From Candidatus Electrothrix rattekaaiensis (GTDB taxonomy: Bacteria > Desulfobacterota > Desulfobulbia > Desulfobulbales > Desulfobulbaceae), in assembly GCA_032595675.1 (NCBI GenBank), contig JAVQMD010000001.1:2450640-2514639 (forward strand): a stretch of DNA of 64,000 bases, given 5' to 3'. Each line of letters begins with the position of its first letter. Positions within the stretch are counted from its first letter, which is position 1. Of this stretch, positions 33,996 to 43,461 are shown in pieces. The notes beneath the pieces are model-generated. The model searched no databases and had not been told where the DNA came from. It saw nothing but the letters and a program-made list of their open reading frames with translations. Both the position numbers and the translations under genes were made by a program.

Positions 33996-34386
33996 TTTAT
34001 AGCAATTTCCCTCTTCTCCAAAACCCCCACCCAAAAACCCCATACCTGGGGCTTATAAAAATGCACTCCGGGCCTGTCTCAAAATGCAGATGAAAGCCCA
34101 AGAATGCCCCCTTAAAGTTTCGTTTTCTTCCTGCCCGAAACCTTCCCCCCGCTTGAGCATTCAGGAGCATACAAAAGCATTCTCGACCTTTCCCGGCGAT
34201 TTCAGCAGATTTGTTTTTTAAAGTTTCGGTTCAGGTTTCGGGGGTAGAACCTATCTGAAAGGCAAGAACAACGGAAACGCTTTGCTGAAAGTTAGCGGCT
34301 TGGTGAGCGGTTGTGGAGTACTTCGGGCAAGAGGTTGTTCAATAAATCCTGACTGTACATTTTCGGCAGTTCCACTTTATGCCGTC

Positions 34387-34456
34387 ATGTATAGAAAAAG
34401 CGATTTTCTATACATCAGCAGGTTGTCGTGTATAGGAAAACAGCTTTTTGTATACA
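34387..34456. promoter_or_regulatory. Two tandem dyads ahead of the ImmA/IrrE gene
   Basis: The first, ATGTATAGAAAA/TTTTCTATACAT, is a perfect 12-base inverted repeat around a short centre; the second, TGTATAGGAAAA/TTTTTGTATACA, matches at 10 of 12. They are about 40 bases apart (roughly four helical turns) and could be operators of the XRE-ImmA protein encoded at 34642. Confidence 0.5.
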
Positions 34457-34641
34457 TGAGGACAGGCACAGGTGGAGCTGAAGCGTTTCTTCAGCGGCCT
34501 GGTGCCCGGATGATCCGCAGTAACACAGCGCAAAAGAATACCTTCCTCACAGTGAACCCCGTTTCCATCTCCTGTAAAATCGGGTAGTATATTTGTGTGA
34601 CACGACAAAACCCGCAAAAAATACGAACAGGTTGATACACC

Positions 34642-35817
34642 ATGCCTGAAGCCTTTATTACTCCGCATGTGCTCAGTTGGGCAAGAAAACGGGCGCAGTT
34701 CAGCACGGATGCTGCTGCGCATAAGGTAAAGGTGCGTCCTGAGCAGTTTCTTGCCTGGGAGGAGGGCAAAAAGCGGCCAACCTTCCGGCAGGCGCAAACC
34801 CTTGCCAAGGTGTTTCATGTGCCGTTCGGATACTTCTTTCTGCCTGCCCCGCCGAAACAGGAACCGGATATACCCGACCTGCGGACTCTGGGCAGCAGAA
34901 CCATGCCCGGTTTCAGCCTTGAATTTCTTGATCTGTACAACGATATTCTGCGGAAACAGGACTGGTTCCGAGAATACCGTATGCAGGAGGGGGCACAGCC
35001 GCTGCCCTTTATCGGCAAATACTCCGTAACAGATGATTACCGGGTGGTGGCGGAGGATATACGGCAGGTGCTGTCTGTGGATGAGGTCCGCAGTTCCGCC
35101 CGAAATTGGGAACAGTTCATCACCTGCCTGATTGAACAGGCCGAGGATGCCGGTATCCTTGTCATGCGCAATTCCATTGTCGGCAACAACACCCACCGCC
35201 CGCTCTCCGTTGATGAGTTCCGGGGCTTTGCCCTCAGTGACCCGGTGGCACCGCTCATCTTTATCAATTCCCGTGATGCCAAATCCGCGCAAATCTTCAC
35301 CCTTGCCCATGAGCTGGTTCATCTCTGGATCGGACAGAGCGGAGTTTCCAGCCCTCAGCTGAATAAAGAGAAAAAAGGCAAACGTGGAAAGAAGGTGGAA
35401 ACCTTCTGCAACAGGACGGCTGCGGAGATACTGGTTCCTGAAGCGCAGTTTCTGACTGATTGGAACAGCGAAATTCCGGCGCAGAACAATATTGCCCTGC
35501 TTGCTCAACAGTACCGGGTCAGTCAGCTGGTTATTGCCCGGCGCGGATACGATCTGAACGTGTTGCCCTATGATGTGTTGCAGGATTTTTACCGGCAGGC
35601 TGTTCAATATGACCGAAAGAAAAAAGAGAAATTAGCTGAAAGTGCAGGCGGCCCCAAGTCCGACACCATGCGCAAGTTCAGAAACGGCAAATTGTTTTCC
35701 CAAGCTGTGGCGGCTGCGGCCCTTGAGGGCAGATTACTGCTGAGGGATGCCGGTTCTCTGCTGGGGATTAAACCGGCTGGCCTGAAACAATATGCGGACT
35801 TTCTGACAGGGAAATAA
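34642..35817 (+). CDS. XRE-ImmA/IrrE metallopeptidase regulator
   Basis: A 391-aa protein with an N-terminal HTH (about 8-62, AAHKVKVRPEQFLAWEEGKK), a linker, and a zinc peptidase domain with HELVH (223-227) in FTLAHELVHLWIG, followed by CNRTAAEILVPE. Such proteins cleave or relieve repressors and often control mobile elements or toxin-like partners. The next gene (DUF4411) begins one base after its stop, a pairing seen repeatedly in genomes and treated as a toxin-antitoxin-like module. The C-terminal tail (KLAESAGGPKSDTMRKFRNG) extends beyond the peptidase. Confidence 0.9.
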   Translation: MPEAFITPHVLSWARKRAQFSTDAAAHKVKVRPEQFLAWEEGKKRPTFRQAQTLAKVFHVPFGYFFLPAPPKQEPDIPDLRTLGSRTMPGFSLEFLDLYNDILRKQDWFREYRMQEGAQPLPFIGKYSVTDDYRVVAEDIRQVLSVDEVRSSARNWEQFITCLIEQAEDAGILVMRNSIVGNNTHRPLSVDEFRGFALSDPVAPLIFINSRDAKSAQIFTLAHELVHLWIGQSGVSSPQLNKEKKGKRGKKVETFCNRTAAEILVPEAQFLTDWNSEIPAQNNIALLAQQYRVSQLVIARRGYDLNVLPYDVLQDFYRQAVQYDRKKKEKLAESAGGPKSDTMRKFRNGKLFSQAVAAAALEGRLLLRDAGSLLGIKPAGLKQYADFLTGK

Positions 35818-35818
35818 T

Positions 35819-36322
35819 ATGGACTACTGCCTGGACAGCAACGTATTTATTCAGGCCAAAAACGCTCACTACCATTTTTCTATCTGCCCCGGTTTCTGGG
35901 ACTGGCTTGTTCTGCGGGCCGGGACAGTGGGTTCTATTTCTCCTGTTCTGGAAGAGCTTCAGAACGGCAACGATGAATTGAAAGATTGGGCTGAAGAGAT
36001 AAAAGGCTCTCATTTCTTTGCCGAGGTGACGGAACCCACTGTTCAGGAAGTCTTCAGATCAATTGCCAGCTATGCGGTGGAGAATCACAGTCAGCGCGTA
36101 GCTGAACATTTCCTTTCAGGGGCCGACCCGTGGCTGATAGCCTTTGCCAAAGTCCACGGATGTATTGTTGTAACCCATGAGGCATACAACCCGCAGGCAA
36201 AGAGAAAAATCCTCATCCCCAATGTCTGCCATGAATTTGAGGTCGATTATACCGACTGTTTCACCATGCTGAAAAACCTGGACGTTCGCTTTGTTCTGGA
36301 AGAAACCCGGAACGGAGAATGA
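35819..36322 (+). CDS. DUF4411 family PIN-like protein
   Basis: A 167-aa PIN-fold protein: CLDSNVFIQAKN at the start carries the first acidic residue, then ISPVLEELQNG, SGADPWLIAFAKVHGCIVVTHE with further acidic residues, and IPNVCHEF near the end. The PIN-like acidic set suggests ribonuclease activity, so it is the likely toxin of the ImmA/IrrE-DUF4411 pair. It starts almost at the stop of the regulator. Last protein gene before the right att site. Confidence 0.88.
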   Translation: MDYCLDSNVFIQAKNAHYHFSICPGFWDWLVLRAGTVGSISPVLEELQNGNDELKDWAEEIKGSHFFAEVTEPTVQEVFRSIASYAVENHSQRVAEHFLSGADPWLIAFAKVHGCIVVTHEAYNPQAKRKILIPNVCHEFEVDYTDCFTMLKNLDVRFVLEETRNGE

Positions 36323-36518
36323 CGCAATCCGCACGCTATCAGCTCGCTTTCTGTGTTTCCCCTCTCCCTGCCTGAAAGTCAGCCCCTCACATAACGACGG
36401 GTAGCCTTTTTCACGGCTGCTGTTCTTCCGAAAAAAGAAAATTGAGAAGTACCCCGGAAAAAAATTTGGGGTGGTTTGCGCTTGGCTCTGCTGGGACAGA
36501 TAAACCGAAAATCCGTTC

Positions 36519-36542
36519 ATCTGCTGGGGATAGTGCTGGGGA
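36519..36542. repeat. Terminal 24-bp repeat, right
   Basis: Identical to 25402-25425. It lies 40 bases inside the right att repeat, whereas the left copy lies 111 bases inside the left one. Confidence 0.75.
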
Positions 36543-36552
36543 AACAAAAACA

Positions 36553-36580
36553 GGGAGTCAAGCTGTACAGCTTAACTCCC
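36553..36580 (-). terminator. Terminator of tRNA-Arg supplied by the element
   Basis: GGGAGT-C-AAGCTG-TA-CAGCTT-A-ACTCCC; on the minus strand followed by GTTTTTGTTT. It has the same outer stem and the same C/A mismatch as the chromosomal hairpin at 25202-25230 but a different inner stem. Confidence 0.75.
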
Positions 36581-36581
36581 T

Positions 36582-36640
36582 GATATATTTGGTACGCCAA
36601 GCAGGATTCGAACCTGCGACCTACGGCTTAGAAGGCCGTT
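36582..36640 (-). repeat. Right attachment site (3' half of the intact tRNA-Arg)
   Basis: 59 bases identical to 25232-25290. Confidence 0.92.
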
Positions 36641-36666
36641 GCTCTATCCAGCTGAGCTATTGGCGC
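36590..36666 (-). tRNA. tRNA-Arg (UCU)
   Basis: A 77-nt cloverleaf on the minus strand: acceptor GCGCCAA pairs with TTGGCGT (G1-T72 wobble), D-arm AGCTCAGCTGGATAGAGCA, anticodon stem ACGGC/GCCGT with loop CTTCTAA (anticodon TCT), T-arm with GGTTCGAATCC, and an encoded CCA. Its 3' half is shared with the left att site, so the functional tRNA depends on the element's DNA. It is followed by the hairpin at 36553-36580. Confidence 0.97.
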
Positions 36667-36729
36667 ATATGTGATCATATTGACCTACTTTTCGCAAGAG
36701 AGACAATATACAAGAGAACGATAAATAAA

Positions 36730-39084
36730 TCAACGATCATTTCCAGTAGCATTCTCACAAACTTTACATGCCTCGTCCTGCTCCCAAACTGGACCGTTTG
36801 CCGTATCATGGACAATGATGCCTTTTTGCAGGAGTTCTGTTCGGGCCTTATCCGCTGTTTCCCAGTCCCGCCGGAGTCGAGCCTCTTCCCGCTGCTCAAT
36901 CAGGCGATTGATTTCCGGTGCCAAGACACATTGCTCCAAACGGAGAAAACCAAAAACCCGGTTCATCTTCCGCAAAAGGGAAAAAATTTCATTTTTCTGG
37001 TTCAGATCCACACTGCCTGCATAGAGGATAGGATTCACCTTTTTGATAAATTCAAACAGGGCACCAATAGCACCAGAGATGTTCAGATCATCATCCAATG
37101 CTGTCATAAATTGATCCTCTAATGCACCGAGCAAAGAGCCGATGACCGGATGAGGAAGCCCTGGATGCATACAGCCCAGCTTTCGGGTGAACTCGTCAAT
37201 CCTTTTTAAGGCCTTGCGGATGGCATCAAGTTTTTTATAGGTGAAATGCATGGATTTCCGGTAATGCACCCCAAGCAGCATAAAACGGATTTCTCGACTG
37301 CCATACCCTTTATCTATCGCCTCCTCAAGCGTGACCACATTCCCTGCCTCGCCGGACATTTTTTTGCCGTCTTTCAGCAGCATCCCGGAATGGAGCCAGT
37401 AATTGGCTAAAGGCTTGCCGGTCAGGGCCTCAGCGATAGCGATTTCATTTTCATGATGGGGAAAAAGCAGTTCCTGACCGCCGGTATGGATATCAATGGT
37501 CTCGCCCAGATGGCGGGTGGACATGGCCGTACATTCGATATGCCAGCCCGGTCGAATGTTGCCCCAGTCTGTCTCGTAAAAAATCCCCTTTTTCAGCTCG
37601 CCCAGAGTGGAGCGTTTCAACAGGGTGAAATCCCTTGGATTGCCTTTTTCATAATTATCCAGATCAACTGTACGGCCCACCTGGATCATACTCAGGTCAA
37701 CCCCGGAAAGCTGCCCGTATTTGCCAAATTTTGCAATATCAAAATAGATAGATCCGTGCTTTTCATAGGCATAGCCCTTATGAATCAGCTCATGGGCGAT
37801 TTCAATCATATCGCCGACATACTCCGAGGCCCTAGGGTAACCGGAGAAATCATTTATGCCGAGGAAATTGATCGCTTCACGAAATAGGGATATGTACTTA
37901 TCGGTAAATCCAGCCAGCGGCTCACCGGCCTTGTCAGCTCCAATAATGGTATTATCGTCAAGATCAGTGAAATTCATCAGGGATTCAACCTCAAATCCCT
38001 TGAACTGAAAATAGCGGATCATCAAATCGGCAACCACCAATCGACGACAATGGGACAAGTTAGGCGGCTCAAAGGCAGTTGGCCCACAGGCGTAAAAGGT
38101 TACTTTTCCAGGATGCAGCGGCTTAAAAGCCTCTTTTTTCCGCGTAATGGTATTATACAGAAAAAGCTGTCGCTCTTTGGTCTCCAGCTTCTCCTTCCGA
38201 ATAAAAAGCGGCGTACTCAGGTAGCGTTCCCCCCCGTCCGGAAAAATGACCACCACATAACTCTCCTTTTGTTTCCTTGCCTGCTCCATCGCTGCAACCA
38301 TAGCAGCCCCGGAACTCATTCCGACAAAGACTCCCTCTTCCCGAGCCAGCAAGCGGGCCGTGCGAAAGGCATCCTCATCCTTGACATTAACAATATCATG
38401 AGGCAGGGCCTTGTCGAATATCTCAGGCTTATAGGACTCCTTCATATTCTTCAGCCCTTGAATCTTATGCCCGTAATACGGCTCCACCGCAATGACTCGT
38501 ACCGCAGGGTGGTGTTCCCTGAACCAGACCGAGAGCCCCATGGCCGTGCCCGAGGTTCCCAAGGTGGTGATGATATCCGTGACCCGACCTGCTGTCTGCT
38601 CCCAAATCTCCGGACCAGTGCTTTGATAATGGGCCTGCCAGTTGGCTGGATTATTAAACTGATCCGTGAGGAAATAACGATCTGGATCTTCACGGGCAAC
38701 GGCATAGGCTTTCTCAATGGCACCGTCTGTGGAACGGGCAGCCGGGGTGAGGATAATCTCCGCCCCATAGGCCCGCATAATCTGCCGTCGTTCTATACTG
38801 GCGGATTCCGGCATAATGAGTTGACAACGGTATCCTTTGGCAGCGCAAACCATAGCCAAGCCGATGCCGGTATTACCGCTGGTGGCCTCAAGAACAATCT
38901 TATCCGGCGTCAATTCTCCGCTTTTCTCGCCAGCCTCAATCATGTTCAAGGCAGGTCTGTCTTTGACTGAACCGCCAGGATTCATGCATTCCAGTTTAGC
39001 ATGGATTTCTCCAGCCCCCGAAGGACACATTCTCTGCAAAGAGACAAGAGGAGTATTGCCGATAAGATTAAGAAGATTCATCAA
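36730..39084 (-). CDS. Cysteine synthase fused to a cysteinyl-tRNA-synthetase-like domain
   Basis: A 784-aa two-domain protein. Residues 1-300 are a PLP cysteine synthase: PGGSVKDR with Lys 41, SGNTGIG (69-75), TTLGTSGTAMG and SSGAA. Residues about 305-784 follow the cysteinyl-tRNA synthetase plan: the zinc ligands C333 (YACGPT), C518 (GWHIECTAM), H543 and E547 (FPHHENE) are kept, and the C-terminal helical part is present. The HIGH signature at the expected spacing is NLSH (342-345), losing the first His, and KMSKS reads KMSGE (575-579), losing the second Lys. It could be a true synthetase with divergent signatures or a cysteine ligase of another kind (compare MshC, a synthetase paralogue). 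There is no frameshift between the domains. Confidence 0.9.
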   Translation of the reverse strand: MMNLLNLIGNTPLVSLQRMCPSGAGEIHAKLECMNPGGSVKDRPALNMIEAGEKSGELTPDKIVLEATSGNTGIGLAMVCAAKGYRCQLIMPESASIERRQIMRAYGAEIILTPAARSTDGAIEKAYAVAREDPDRYFLTDQFNNPANWQAHYQSTGPEIWEQTAGRVTDIITTLGTSGTAMGLSVWFREHHPAVRVIAVEPYYGHKIQGLKNMKESYKPEIFDKALPHDIVNVKDEDAFRTARLLAREEGVFVGMSSGAAMVAAMEQARKQKESYVVVIFPDGGERYLSTPLFIRKEKLETKERQLFLYNTITRKKEAFKPLHPGKVTFYACGPTAFEPPNLSHCRRLVVADLMIRYFQFKGFEVESLMNFTDLDDNTIIGADKAGEPLAGFTDKYISLFREAINFLGINDFSGYPRASEYVGDMIEIAHELIHKGYAYEKHGSIYFDIAKFGKYGQLSGVDLSMIQVGRTVDLDNYEKGNPRDFTLLKRSTLGELKKGIFYETDWGNIRPGWHIECTAMSTRHLGETIDIHTGGQELLFPHHENEIAIAEALTGKPLANYWLHSGMLLKDGKKMSGEAGNVVTLEEAIDKGYGSREIRFMLLGVHYRKSMHFTYKKLDAIRKALKRIDEFTRKLGCMHPGLPHPVIGSLLGALEDQFMTALDDDLNISGAIGALFEFIKKVNPILYAGSVDLNQKNEIFSLLRKMNRVFGFLRLEQCVLAPEINRLIEQREEARLRRDWETADKARTELLQKGIIVHDTANGPVWEQDEACKVCENATGNDR

Positions 39085-39178
39085 GCAGGTTCTCAGGTAA
39101 AAGATAGTACAGATTGAAAAAAAGCATTATTGCCCCTTCTGACTGAAAGATTGAAAAATAAAAAAGAGAATGGGCATC

Positions 39179-40585
39179 TTACTCCCCTGTTCGGGATTCA
39201 TCAGCACAGGGAAAAGACTCCAAATTGCGACCTACAGCAGCCAGCAGTTGGTGCCGAGCCTGATGATAAGAAACCAAGGCCTGCACCAACCCGCCATAGG
39301 TGGCTGTCAGATCCCGCTGGGCCTCATTCAGGCGGACCAACGAGGCTGAACCAGCCTCATATTCACTTTTTGCCAGCTTACGGTTCTCTTCCACCAGCTC
39401 AACCGTCTCCCGCTGCAAACGGACCTGTTCTCGGGCGGCAGCCAACCGGGCAATATCCTGCTGAACCTCGGCAGCAATACTCTTGCGCAATTCTGCGTAG
39501 GCATATTTTGCCTCTCTTTTTGCCTGCCGGGCCTTAAGAACAGCCGCATCCACAGCCCCACCGGAATAGAGATTCCAGCTAGCACTCACCCCGAGTGAGG
39601 TACCAAAATCCTCGCCTGTAGGCACCAAGCTATCCTGGGTGTTACCGTTAACCTGCCCAGCAAGTTGCACTGTCGGCCAATTGCCAGCCTTTGCTTGCTC
39701 AATACTGGATTCCGCTCCCTTGATCTGCATATCCAAGGCTGTAAGATCAGGACGTGCCTGCAATGCCTCTGCAATCAACTTGTCCCCATCAGTCCGGGCA
39801 GTCCATGTATTATCGGCAAAAATATCACAATCCTTGTCCAGCTCAGCCAACTTCACTGTTTCCGGCAGGACAGCATCAACAAGCCCCAAGAGGGCTGCCA
39901 AGGCATAACGGGCAACCTCGTAATCGCGTGTACTGGTCAATAAACTATTCTTGGCCGAATTGAGCTGAACCTTCATGTTCAGCACATCGCTTAACGAGCC
40001 ACTGCCCACCTCAAGACGACTCTCCGCATCCTGCAATTGCTGTTCATAAAACTCTTTATTGGCCGTTGCTATCTCAATGGCAGCTAGGGCCAACTGGGCA
40101 TTAAAAAAAGCATCAGCAACTGCGGAGGCCAAGATGCGCTGCGTATTTTCCCGGCTTGCAGCAGAGGATCGGACCCCGTATCGTGCCTGTTCCTGCTGAA
40201 ATTTCCGTGCATAGCCGTCAAAGAGGAGCCATGATGCCTGCAAGGTTAAGGAACCGACCTCATAATTTTGGTCAGCGGACGGATCTGACAACCTGACCGA
40301 ATCATACGTATTATCAGAGTATCGGGCAAGCCCGGTTGATGCACTAACATCCACACGGGGTTTATCTGCTGCTCCAGCCTCTTGCAAGGCAGCCTTTGCC
40401 TGCTCCAGACGAGCCTGGGCAGCTCCAATATTGGGATTATCCTGCAAGGCTATCTGTTGCGCGGTTTCTAGATCCAGCAGCTCAATCTGCGTCAGATCAT
40501 AGTGCTCTGTTTTCAGTCTTTCTTTCCCCTGCCCTGTTGTAGCTAGGAGAAAAAATACGATAAAGACAATTATACTCTGTTTCAC
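39179..40585 (-). CDS. TolC family outer-membrane efflux protein
   Basis: A 468-aa TolC-like protein with a signal peptide (cleavage near GQGKE). The two repeated OEP domains appear as long coiled-coil helices rich in Ala, Gln and Glu: LDLETAQQIALQDNPNIGAA at the start of the first and ALQARPDLTALDMQIKGAES at the start of the second, with beta-barrel strands such as GVSASWNLYSGG. It forms the outer-membrane channel of a tripartite exporter or type I secretion system. The inner-membrane partner is not adjacent; the TamA-like gene is divergent. Confidence 0.9.
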   Translation of the reverse strand: MKQSIIVFIVFFLLATTGQGKERLKTEHYDLTQIELLDLETAQQIALQDNPNIGAAQARLEQAKAALQEAGAADKPRVDVSASTGLARYSDNTYDSVRLSDPSADQNYEVGSLTLQASWLLFDGYARKFQQEQARYGVRSSAASRENTQRILASAVADAFFNAQLALAAIEIATANKEFYEQQLQDAESRLEVGSGSLSDVLNMKVQLNSAKNSLLTSTRDYEVARYALAALLGLVDAVLPETVKLAELDKDCDIFADNTWTARTDGDKLIAEALQARPDLTALDMQIKGAESSIEQAKAGNWPTVQLAGQVNGNTQDSLVPTGEDFGTSLGVSASWNLYSGGAVDAAVLKARQAKREAKYAYAELRKSIAAEVQQDIARLAAAREQVRLQRETVELVEENRKLAKSEYEAGSASLVRLNEAQRDLTATYGGLVQALVSYHQARHQLLAAVGRNLESFPCADESRTGE

Positions 40586-41017
40586 AAGGTATCCTATATT
40601 CCTGGCACTGAGTTATTAAAAAAATAAGAAAAATGGAGCAGCAAAAAACCACCTCCAAAGGAGACACAACGTGGTTCCTCCTCTTATCATTTTTCTCCTA
40701 TTGAAACACTGTCATAAATATTTTGCAAAATGTTTATTCTGCCCTCCTCATACAAGGTGGGCAGTGAGCCCATAGCAGAGGCCCTGCCGGAGACACATTT
40801 TCTCCTAGAGTTTTTTTCTCGTTCACACAAAAAATCATCGTGTTACATCTCATCATGAAGAGGGCAATCCCAACAAATAAATACCTCCTAAAAAAACAAA
40901 AAGTTTTATTCCTTGCCAAAAAAAAACGGCGATGCTATATTTACATTGTTATTTCAAAGAGATATTAAACACTATCTCAAACCTTTATTTTTTACGCCCC
41001 CACCCTTCATAACCTTT
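40586..41017. other. Divergent promoter region between tolC-like and tamA-like genes
   Basis: Contains nested inverted repeats at about 40629-40700 (GAAAAATGGAG ... ACCACCTCC-AAA-GGAG ... GTGGT ... CATTTTTC), which may form a structured RNA or act as regulatory sites, and an AT-rich stretch. No gene is supported. The frame upstream of 41018 starts only with TTG. Confidence 0.45.
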
Positions 41018-42826
41018 ATGTTTTTCAGAGTATTTTGTTCGATTCTGGATAAAAAATATTTTCCCGTCAGGTATCGCTACGGAATTCCCATCCGAGTTTT
41101 CCTTGTCCTCATGTTTCTCGCGCTGCCCGCTCTCGTGCAGGCAATCCCACTGACCGTGGTTGTTCGCGGTGTTGAAGGGGAGGAGGAGCATAAAAATATC
41201 ATGACCAGCATAAAGATAGCTCTTCAGCAGGAAAATCCAAACTTGACCTTACGACATATTCGCAGATTGCACAAGGCCACGCCTGAACAGATCGTCAAGG
41301 CCTTGGCACCATTTGGATATTACTCTGTCGAGGTAAAAGACGGAGGATCCTTAACAAAGGACGACAGCGGCTGGCATGCTGTTTATGAGGTTATTCCTGG
41401 GAAACCTGCCCTTGTTGAACAGGTAAATATAGAGGTAACAGGGCCAGGGGCGGATGAAGATATTTTTCAAAACCTGAAAAAAAAATTCCCGCTCAAAAAA
41501 GGTGAGCAACTCAAGGATACGCTGTACGAAAAAGGAAAAAAAAACATTCTGTCTGCTGCCCTGCGCAACGGTTATATCAAGGCAGGTTTCACCACAAGCA
41601 AGGTCCTGGTCCGTCACAAGGAGTACCGGGCCGAGATACAGCTCAACCTTGACACCGGCCCCCTCTTTTTTTTCGGAGAGACCACTAGTGATCAGGACAT
41701 CATCATGCCTGAGATGCTTGATCGCTACCTCCCTTACAGTTCTGGTGATGTCTATTCCCTCAGCGCTCTGAATCAGCTCCAAACGGATCTTTATGCCACC
41801 GGATACTTCAGCCAAGTCTTTGTAGATCCCCAATATCCAGGGACTGAAAATGAGGAACAGGTGATTCCGGTTGAGGTCGAGCTAAAGCCGGCCAAAAAAA
41901 ATCGCTATAGCCTCGGGGTTGGGTACGGCACTGATACCGGTGCCCGTGGGAACATTGGTTGGAAGAATCGCATTATCAATCGACACGGCCATAAACCTGA
42001 ATTTAATATTCAATTGGCGGAAAACGGCAACCAGTCCAATGCGGGATATGAAATTCCGGTTTTTGACCTCCGCTACGACTCTATAAATTTTGACACGATT
42101 TTTTTTGATAAAACCTGGGAAGATACCTGGATCAAACAGCTTTCAATCAGCGGCTCAGTCAATCATAATGCCCCGAAACACCAGTACGGGGTCGGCCTAG
42201 AGTACCTGCATGAAAATTACACAGTCGGTGCTACCAGCGGTTCGGCAAACCTTCTTATCCCAAGAGGTTACGCAACCCTCATCCTGGCTAAGGATCGCGT
42301 CAAAACAGAACGCGGCATACGTCTGAGTGCCAGCCTTAAAGGGGGCAATACGGCGTTTCTCTCCAGCACAAGCTTCCTACAAGCACAAGCCAACGGCAAG
42401 GCCATCCTTACGCCTTGGAAAAAATGGCGCCTTCTCGGCCGATTATCAATCGGCGCAATCATGATGGACTCCATTGACGAACTGCCGCCCTCACTTCGTT
42501 TCTATGCAGGTGGTGACCATTCGGTACGCGGCTATGGGTATAAAGAATTGGGGCCGGAGGATTCTTCAGGAAAAATAGTTGGCGGTCAATATCTGACCGA
42601 AGCCAGCATTGAAATTGAGCGAGAAATTACCAAAACTTGGCGTGCAGCTGCCTTCTATGATTTAGGCAATGCCTATGACGATATTGATGCCGACCTTCAG
42701 GTAGGTGCAGGCCTCGGGGTCCGAATGAATCTGCCCTTTGGACAGGTGCGCCTGGATGTGGCCTGTGCTCTCTCGGATGCTGATTACCCCCTGCGCATCC
42801 ATCTGACCATAGGCGCAGATCTGTAA
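41018..42826 (+). CDS. Omp85-family outer-membrane assembly protein (TamA-like)
   Basis: A 602-aa protein with a signal segment (IPIRVFLVLMFLALPALVQA), about three POTRA domains (residues about 45-265) and a C-terminal 16-strand barrel. The POTRA region includes APFGYYSVEVKD, KKGKKNILSAALRNGYI and LYATGYFSQVFVDP; the barrel includes GVGYGTDTGARG and the signature RFYAGGDHSVRGYGYKELGP, typical of the Omp85 VRGY/F motif. This architecture is that of TamA. The protein inserts outer-membrane proteins, usually with TamB, which is not next to it. The open frame extends upstream to a TTG at 40913; ATG 41018 is the first ATG, though it leaves a long signal. Confidence 0.88.
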   Translation: MFFRVFCSILDKKYFPVRYRYGIPIRVFLVLMFLALPALVQAIPLTVVVRGVEGEEEHKNIMTSIKIALQQENPNLTLRHIRRLHKATPEQIVKALAPFGYYSVEVKDGGSLTKDDSGWHAVYEVIPGKPALVEQVNIEVTGPGADEDIFQNLKKKFPLKKGEQLKDTLYEKGKKNILSAALRNGYIKAGFTTSKVLVRHKEYRAEIQLNLDTGPLFFFGETTSDQDIIMPEMLDRYLPYSSGDVYSLSALNQLQTDLYATGYFSQVFVDPQYPGTENEEQVIPVEVELKPAKKNRYSLGVGYGTDTGARGNIGWKNRIINRHGHKPEFNIQLAENGNQSNAGYEIPVFDLRYDSINFDTIFFDKTWEDTWIKQLSISGSVNHNAPKHQYGVGLEYLHENYTVGATSGSANLLIPRGYATLILAKDRVKTERGIRLSASLKGGNTAFLSSTSFLQAQANGKAILTPWKKWRLLGRLSIGAIMMDSIDELPPSLRFYAGGDHSVRGYGYKELGPEDSSGKIVGGQYLTEASIEIEREITKTWRAAAFYDLGNAYDDIDADLQVGAGLGVRMNLPFGQVRLDVACALSDADYPLRIHLTIGADL

Positions 42827-42843
42827 ACAACATCACCTCTTTT

Positions 42844-43461
42844 CTACAGAAAAGGTGTAATATCACCTTTGCCTTCACGAAGAATTTCCGGCTGTTCGGA
42901 AATCAGCGAAATAACGGTTGACGGATTAGGATACACCTCTCCGCCATCAATAATCAAATCAACATCGTGACCGAAGAGCTTTTCAACATCAAAAGCGTCA
43001 ATGACCGGCTCATCATGATCATCACGCAGAGCACTGGTATTGAGGAGCGGATTGCCGAATTCCTCAATCACGGCAAGACAGATGGGCGAGTCCGGCACTC
43101 GGATACCGACCGTTTTCTGCTTGGTCAGCATAATTTTCGGTACCAACTTAGAGCCGGGCAGGACTAACGTATAAGGGCCGGGTAAATGCTTACGCATGAG
43201 CCGATAGGCAGTGCTCCCCACATGAGCATATTCGCTGATATTCTTCAATGATGAACACATAAAGGAGAAGGGTTTCAGTTTGGGACGTTTTTTGACCTGA
43301 TGAATCCGCTTAACCGCTTTCTGATTAAAGATATCACAGCCGATACCGTACATAGTATCAGTAGGATAGCAGACAACCCCCCCCCTTCGTAACGTATCAA
43401 CCACGACACCGACAAGACGGGGTTGAGGATTATAAGGATTGATTTCAATATGTTTCGCCAT
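42844..43461 (-). CDS. Sua5/YciO/YrdC family protein (threonylcarbamoyl-AMP synthase-like)
   Basis: A 205-aa YrdC-domain protein with the conserved GGVVCYPTDTMYGIGCDIFN, KKRPKLKPFSFMC, LPGPYTLVLPGS, VGIRVPDSPIC and LLNTSALR segments. The family makes threonylcarbamoyl-AMP for the t6A modification of tRNA. The R-P-K-x-K-P-F-S pattern and length are of the YciO-like branch, whose exact role is less clear, so I do not give tsaC. It is convergent with the TamA-like gene, separated by 17 bases. Confidence 0.88.
   Translation of the reverse strand: MAKHIEINPYNPQPRLVGVVVDTLRRGGVVCYPTDTMYGIGCDIFNQKAVKRIHQVKKRPKLKPFSFMCSSLKNISEYAHVGSTAYRLMRKHLPGPYTLVLPGSKLVPKIMLTKQKTVGIRVPDSPICLAVIEEFGNPLLNTSALRDDHDEPVIDAFDVEKLFGHDVDLIIDGGEVYPNPSTVISLISEQPEILREGKGDITPFL

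Follow-up and report, generated by a model that had tools for sequence, protein, structure and literature searches.

Cysteine synthesis is usually held in check by feedback on the serine acetyltransferase CysE, and translation demand is coupled to amino acid supply by T-boxes, attenuation and RelA. In eukaryotes, the kinase GCN2 carries a degenerate class II HisRS-like domain that is thought to read tRNA. Feedback inhibition through a synthetase paralog that has no adenylation activity is known from HisZ (PMC9437257). The fold of cysteinyl-tRNA synthetase (CysRS) has been put to other uses in MshC, which keeps KMSKS (PMC9736012), and in CysRS*, which has no anticodon domain and charges the selC* tRNA (PMC7609411, PMC9437257), and CysM of M. 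tuberculosis has been described as a user of O-phosphoserine (PMC11361707). Here, a gene was analysed from a 64,000-nucleotide stretch of Candidatus Electrothrix rattekaaiensis (contig JAVQMD010000001.1, positions 2,450,640 to 2,514,639; the whole stretch is called the window), in which a cysteine synthase is fused to a CysRS-like domain.

The product was interpreted as an O-phosphoserine sulfhydrylase with a tRNA-Cys-binding pseudo-synthetase that would sense cysteine supply in the manner of GCN2 or HisZ, a reading considered moderately probable. Sequence comparison established the fusion and its conservation, the disappearance of catalytic motifs from many members, the retention of anticodon-reading residues, the presence of a separate cysS and the lack of a CysE match in genomes relying on the fusion.

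The first-pass annotation had described one frame joining a complete pyridoxal phosphate (PLP) cysteine synthase to a synthetase domain, and this was confirmed with Pfam and NCBIfam. Positions 36730-39084 of the minus strand, on which all parts of the gene given below also lie, form a single uninterrupted frame (784 aa from a TTG start, with an ATG directly after it). Residues were numbered from the ATG at 39081 (gene 36730..39081, 783 aa, stop codon included); the Pfam matches, PALP 6-283, tRNA-synt_1e 320-621, DALR_2 658-714 and CysS_C 721-762, are in the numbering of the 784-aa form. The CysM-type synthase domain (residues 1-294, 38200..39081; Pfam PALP, NCBIfam cysKM, Foldseek) contains the PLP lysine K40 (38962..38964), reported earlier as Lys 41, and is followed by a linker (residues 287-302, 38176..38223) with a predicted local confidence (pLDDT) below 50 and by a full-length CysRS-like domain (residues 307-769, 36775..38163; Pfam, NCBIfam, Foldseek). 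The latter ends in a DALR helical bundle region (residues 656-718, 36928..37116; Pfam DALR_2) and an anticodon-binding domain (residues 719-769, 36775..36927; Pfam CysS_C), which is retained whole and on which the first-pass annotation was silent.

The fusion scored 386.9 bits against NCBIfam cysS (TIGR00435, cut-off 340) and 372.3 bits against the cysKM subfamily (TIGR01136, cut-off 344.15), and stayed under the cut-offs of the CysK/CysM equivalogs TIGR01138 (364.2 of 394.2 bits) and TIGR01139 (332.4 of 350.95 bits). Because it passes the cysS equivalog cut-off, it is liable to be mis-annotated, and genomes carrying it may seem to have two CysRS.

When the whole fusion protein was used as query, 393 of 395 sampled genomes of the phylum matched at E<=1e-60, many across one half only; a match spanning both parts was obtained in at least 155 of the 395 (at least 150, and 5 from a second search). 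Among the best 80 matches in named genomes, 7 were fusions, titled Desulfobulbus, Desulfocapsa, Desulfobacterales, Desulfobacteraceae or Deltaproteobacteria, and the other 73 covered the CysRS part only; the closest fusion among the matches listed was that of Candidatus Desulfobulbus rimicarensis (76% identity). A joining artefact, named earlier as something that would refute the fusion, is excluded by this recurrence in at least 155 phylum genomes and 7 named contigs. No description of a cysteine synthase-CysRS fusion was found in the titles and abstract openings of the literature matches listed, and in the available part of a review of synthetase duplications (PMC9437257) no such fusion is named and the word occurs 0 times.

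The synthetase halves were compared first in an alignment of 137 fusions and 74 standalone CysRS, and then in a final set of 146 fusions obtained by dropping one broken frame (L028) and adding 10. This set represents 140 of the 155 phylum genomes (15 not included) and the 7 named contigs, less L028; L268 (G066, match to residues 3-348 only) and L257 (a repeat of L164) were left out of the fusion counts. A zinc site was scored as intact with C, C, H and E/D, HxG by letters 1 and 3 of HIGH, and KMS[KR]S by K/R, any residue, S/A/T, K/R and S/T.

In the window's protein, as had been noticed earlier and was again seen in the sequence and the alignment, HIGH is replaced by NLSH (residues 341-344, 38050..38061) and KMSKS by KMSGE (residues 574-578, 37348..37362), and all four zinc ligands (C332, C517, H542, E546) are present. 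HxG and KMS[KR]S were intact together in 30 of the 146 fusions, against 73 of the 74 standalone CysRS. Zinc ligands were intact in 75 fusions and at least one was lost in 71; all three motif sets were intact in 19 and all were impaired in 46. By this comparison, the altered motifs of the present gene are part of a family-wide decay.

The anticodon-reading positions showed the opposite pattern. For the contacts of E. coli CysRS with G34, PMC12684709 cites Hauenstein 2004. Residues R423, R427, W432, D436 and D451 of E. coli CysRS, the last of which we take to be an anticodon-reading position, were aligned with R731, R735, W740, D744 and D759 of the fusion (span 36805..36891); R423, R427, W432 and D436 contact G34 (PMC12684709). 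R731, D744 and D759 were invariant in all 146 fusions, position 735 was R in 139 and K in 7, and position 740 was W in 98, F in 37 and Y in 11, so that the five positions (R, R/K, aromatic, D, D) were kept in 146/146. In the 38 fusions of the first alignment that fail all three motif sets, 7/7 anticodon-domain columns conserved in standalone CysRS persisted at 90% or more, and so did 5/6 such columns of the DALR part, against 29/74 of the catalytic part (anticodon versus catalytic, Fisher p 0.0024, in a test that treats the columns as independent, which they are not). It is therefore probably tRNA reading that the synthetase part keeps, a point that goes beyond the earlier description; the domain is likely to bind tRNA-Cys.

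The catalytic part also carries positions specific to the fusions. R346-R347 (38041..38046) were present in 146/146 fusions, and position 347 was P, T, S or A in 71/74 standalone CysRS and R in none. In the segment R490-G499 (37585..37614), R490 and G499 were found in 146/146 and K497 was K in 144 and R in 2; R490 aligned with a gap in 62/74 standalone CysRS. These fusion-specific residues (R347, R490, K497, G499) suggest a new function under constraint for the catalytic part.

A separate CysRS was sought with TIGR00435 in 149 fusion genomes (72 and 77; G066 included, 7 of the 84 remaining genomes left out), and a standalone copy was found in 142 (69/72 and 73/77). A second cysS, which the first-pass annotation had advised looking for, is present in the source genome at C1:558201-559670, with a score of 554 bits (fusion, 388 bits). 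The standalone copies of G066 and G113 are truncated at the end of a contig. No separate CysRS was detected by this search in G005 (79% complete), G078 (62%), G217 (82%) or G354 (94%); besides the fusion, G023 (90%) had only a CysRS fragment, G135 (95%) had as its sole match a CysRS-like protein lacking the anticodon domain, and in G094 (80%) the other CysRS is extended at its C terminus. In none of these seven genomes does the fusion itself have the full motif set. On these profile matches, the fusion is not the housekeeping CysRS of the cell, and since a standalone cysS exists, it need not charge tRNA; that this protein does no charging appears quite probable.

These counts bear on the idea, put forward in the first-pass annotation, that new cysteine is channelled to the synthetase domain and used there to charge tRNA-Cys. 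It is compatible with the TIGR00435 score, the kept anticodon-reading positions, the 19/146 fusions with all three motif sets intact and the lack of a standalone CysRS beyond a fragment in G005, G078, G217 and G023 (4/149), with G354 as a fifth. NLSH and KMSGE in this protein, the 46/146 fusions in which all three motif sets are impaired, and the 142/149 genomes with a separate CysRS speak against it, as does the incomplete motif set of the fusion in each of the seven remaining genomes. Channelling is thus doubtful for the 46 and possible for the 19, and as an account of this protein an active, channelling CysRS is improbable. Compared with CysS, the fusion shares the full-length fold with its anticodon-binding domain, the anticodon-reading residues and a score above the TIGR00435 cut-off; it differs in the altered HIGH and KMSKS, the attached cysteine synthase, the separate cysS beside it and the loss of at least one zinc ligand in 71/146 relatives.

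A second suggestion of the first-pass annotation, ligation of cysteine to a non-tRNA acceptor, examined here as a small molecule with MshC as the model, was not upheld. The two proteins share a CysRS-derived catalytic fold, MshC shows that this fold is capable of such a reaction (PMC9736012), and the zinc site of the present protein is intact. However, MshC itself keeps KMSKS where the fusion has KMSGE, the adenylation motifs are decayed in most members, the fusion scores far under the MshC cut-off (TIGR03447, 192.2 of 485.1 bits), and the anticodon positions are kept throughout. Gene context was compared among the window, 28 neighbourhoods and the 7 named contigs, of which 35/36 gave a fusion match. 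No neighbour family occurred in more than 7 of these 35 fusion loci, no pathway context was found among them, and hence nothing there points to a pathway that would involve an acceptor; the commonest family was present in 7 loci at varied distances, and a few smaller ones (4-6 loci) recurred within groups. An MshC-like ligase is accordingly regarded as very improbable.

A third alternative dispenses with tRNA: free cysteine bound at the zinc site would feed back on the synthase, as HisZ/HisG respond to histidine. This protein keeps its four zinc ligands, as do 75/146 fusions, and such a direct sensor is thus also compatible with it; HisZ offers a precedent. Against it, at least one ligand is gone in 71/146, yet the anticodon positions, for which a sensor of cysteine alone would have no use, persist in 146/146; it is considered unlikely on balance. 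HisZ resembles the fusion as a synthetase relative without adenylation that is attached to the synthesis of the same amino acid, but it is a separate subunit mediating histidine inhibition of HisG, whereas what is conserved in the fusion is the part that reads tRNA.

In the synthase half, K40, K211 and N212 were found in 146/146 fusions. Its substrate loop HKIQGLKNMKESYKPEIF (residues 205-222, 38416..38469) resembles that of the O-phosphoserine sulfhydrylase CysM and differs from the loop SGGxxGPH[KR][IL]QGIGAGF carried by 14/15 standalone paralogs. A 51-aa loop segment matched only three CysM sequences in the PDB (E 0.0004-0.0009), one of them labelled O-phosphoserine sulfhydrylase and presumably of the M. 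tuberculosis type. The fusion shares with that enzyme the PLP fold, the nearest PDB substrate loop and an occurrence without CysE, and differs in the C-terminal CysRS-like domain and in a K for the loop R.

The cysteine pathway was examined in 55 fusion genomes, of which 28 had a second cysKM match and 27 had none. CysE matched at E<=1e-30 in 27/55, each with a standalone cysKM match, and lay within 0.5 kb of the standalone cysK in 19 of these 27; as the matches all fell under the curated cut-off, recognition of CysE rests on the E value and on this adjacency. In the other 28 genomes no CysE match was obtained at E<=1e-14, and 7 of them had matches of 1e-11 to 1e-13 only; the thresholds used could miss a diverged CysE or CysK. 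These 28 comprise the 27 genomes with the fusion as sole cysKM match and G128, where a second cysKM match fell short of the cut-off. SerA was above cut-off in 27 of the 28 (not in G014), and phosphoserine should therefore be available to them (SerC not searched). In fusion-free genomes of the phylum, CysE was found at E<=1e-40 in 38/52. Together with the loop, these distributions make it likely that the synthase half uses O-phosphoserine, a second point beyond the earlier description. No clear link was seen in the 55 genomes between motif decay and CysE presence (all three motif sets intact in 4/27 with and 5/28 without CysE; all impaired in 2 and 7, respectively).

The union of an apparent tRNA-Cys-binding module and a seemingly phosphoserine-type PLP enzyme in one chain also recalls tRNA-dependent synthesis, in which a seryl or phosphoseryl group on tRNA-Cys would be converted to cysteinyl, as by SepRS and SepCysS in methanogens. 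The genomes without a CysE match would suit this route, which is known for SepCysS in archaea (PMC5120207). The conserved synthase core, SGNTG loop included, is however the one found in enzymes whose substrates are free amino acids, and a standalone CysRS occurs in 142/149 fusion genomes (SepRS not searched for), so that this explanation is highly unlikely.

In the favoured reading, tRNA-based sensing of cysteine supply, the synthase would form cysteine from phosphoserine and sulfide, and the CysRS-derived domain would bind tRNA-Cys through its anticodon, charging having been lost in most members and probably in this protein. The charging state of tRNA-Cys, as a report on cysteine supply, would then turn the synthase up or down, and in members that keep the zinc site, this protein included, the signals could also include free cysteine or the cysteinyl end of a charged tRNA. 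The O-phosphoserine route bypasses CysE feedback, which suggests that control has moved onto the synthase, and sensing is the simplest account of anticodon reading kept in all members examined while charging is often lost. That tRNA regulates the synthase at all is put at an even chance, and the specific proposal that tRNA-Cys, read at its anticodon by a retired CysRS, allosterically sets synthase activity in place of feedback on serine acetyltransferase is advanced tentatively, at slightly less than that. The proposed role shares with GCN2 a degenerate synthetase-like domain that would read tRNA and control a fused enzyme; the fused enzyme is, in contrast, bacterial and metabolic, and the attached domain is CysRS-like and of class I.

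Several observations weigh against this reading. The anticodon domain does not evolve more slowly than the rest: in close fusion pairs (47/60 usable), dN/dS was low on median in every module, also in the motif-less subset (0.05-0.15 in 12 pairs), which speaks for the reading, but its median was 0.12-0.13 in the anticodon domain against 0.05-0.08 in the synthase, with single pairs up to 0.94. Conservation is also lower in the synthetase half (mean identity 0.46) than in the synthase (0.65), only key positions of the former being invariant, and the 19/146 fusions with intact zinc site, HxG and KMS[KR]S may still charge tRNA. On the synthase side, K211 stands where the aligned CysM loop has R, which we take to be the phosphate-binding R220. 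All 27 CysE matches scored under the curated cut-off (143-172 versus 210.65 bits), and 14/52 fusion-free genomes likewise had no CysE at E<=1e-40 (one with a match of 4e-24), which makes other cysteine routes or auxotrophy likely in the phylum. The source genome itself has CysE and a standalone CysK, so that the fusion is one of two cysteine routes there.

If the reading holds, a bacterial metabolic enzyme would be governed directly by tRNA, coupling translation demand to amino acid supply by an alternative to T-boxes, attenuation and RelA, and roughly two in five of the sampled phylum genomes would carry such a device. The reading would also hint at how cysteine is kept in check in bacteria that synthesise it without CysE. 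One exact-match pattern, probably too strict, detected no tRNA-Cys gene in the source genome.

In a tree, all 137 fusion synthetase domains of the first alignment fell into one clade (support 0.41), which adjoins four CysRS*-like paralogs of the phylum without anticodon domain (L248, L249, L250, L252) as sister group, with a joint support of 1.0. This placement suggests a shared origin with these paralogs; from CysRS* of Desulfobacterales the fusion differs in having the anticodon domain that CysRS*, a charger of selC* tRNA, is without. Two other kinds of CysRS relative were noted: a CysRS-like protein of 419 aa in G135 (L251), which has no C-terminal domain and groups apart from the four CysRS*-like paralogs, and a further paralog of 729-742 aa with KMAKS in G020, G058 and G094 (L245, L246, L247), whose C-terminal extension looks glycosyltransferase-like by eye.

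The predicted model of the fusion had a pLDDT of 88 and a predicted TM-score (pTM) of 0.63, with the placing of the two halves relative to each other uncertain and low confidence at residues 204-210 of the substrate loop. Its best PDB match by Foldseek was 1u0b_B, from a CysRS:tRNA-Cys complex (E 7.5e-42, TM 0.84 by target), a match in favour of the tRNA-based reading, and the synthase part matched 2bhs_A (TM 0.91 by target).

Around the gene, a tRNA-Arg gene lies downstream at 36590-36666, and an Rfam scan of positions 34000-43000 of the window gave nothing besides it. Three neighbours of one related fusion (L225) resembled, by eye, a thymidylate kinase, an OB/HD nuclease and SurE. In L033 (G129), the open frame that holds the fusion is 1403 aa long and includes about 500 additional residues ahead of it. 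In L028, from a genome in a single contig (G014) without a standalone cysKM or CysE match, the frame is broken near residue 592, either by a sequencing error or by a real truncation. A Nitrospirota contig (L065, JAADHP010000119.1) contains, from about position 689, a 711-aa frame that by eye seems to run from a serine acetyltransferase into a CysRS; this could be another case of CysRS joined to an enzyme of the cysteine pathway, or two genes made by an internal ATG.

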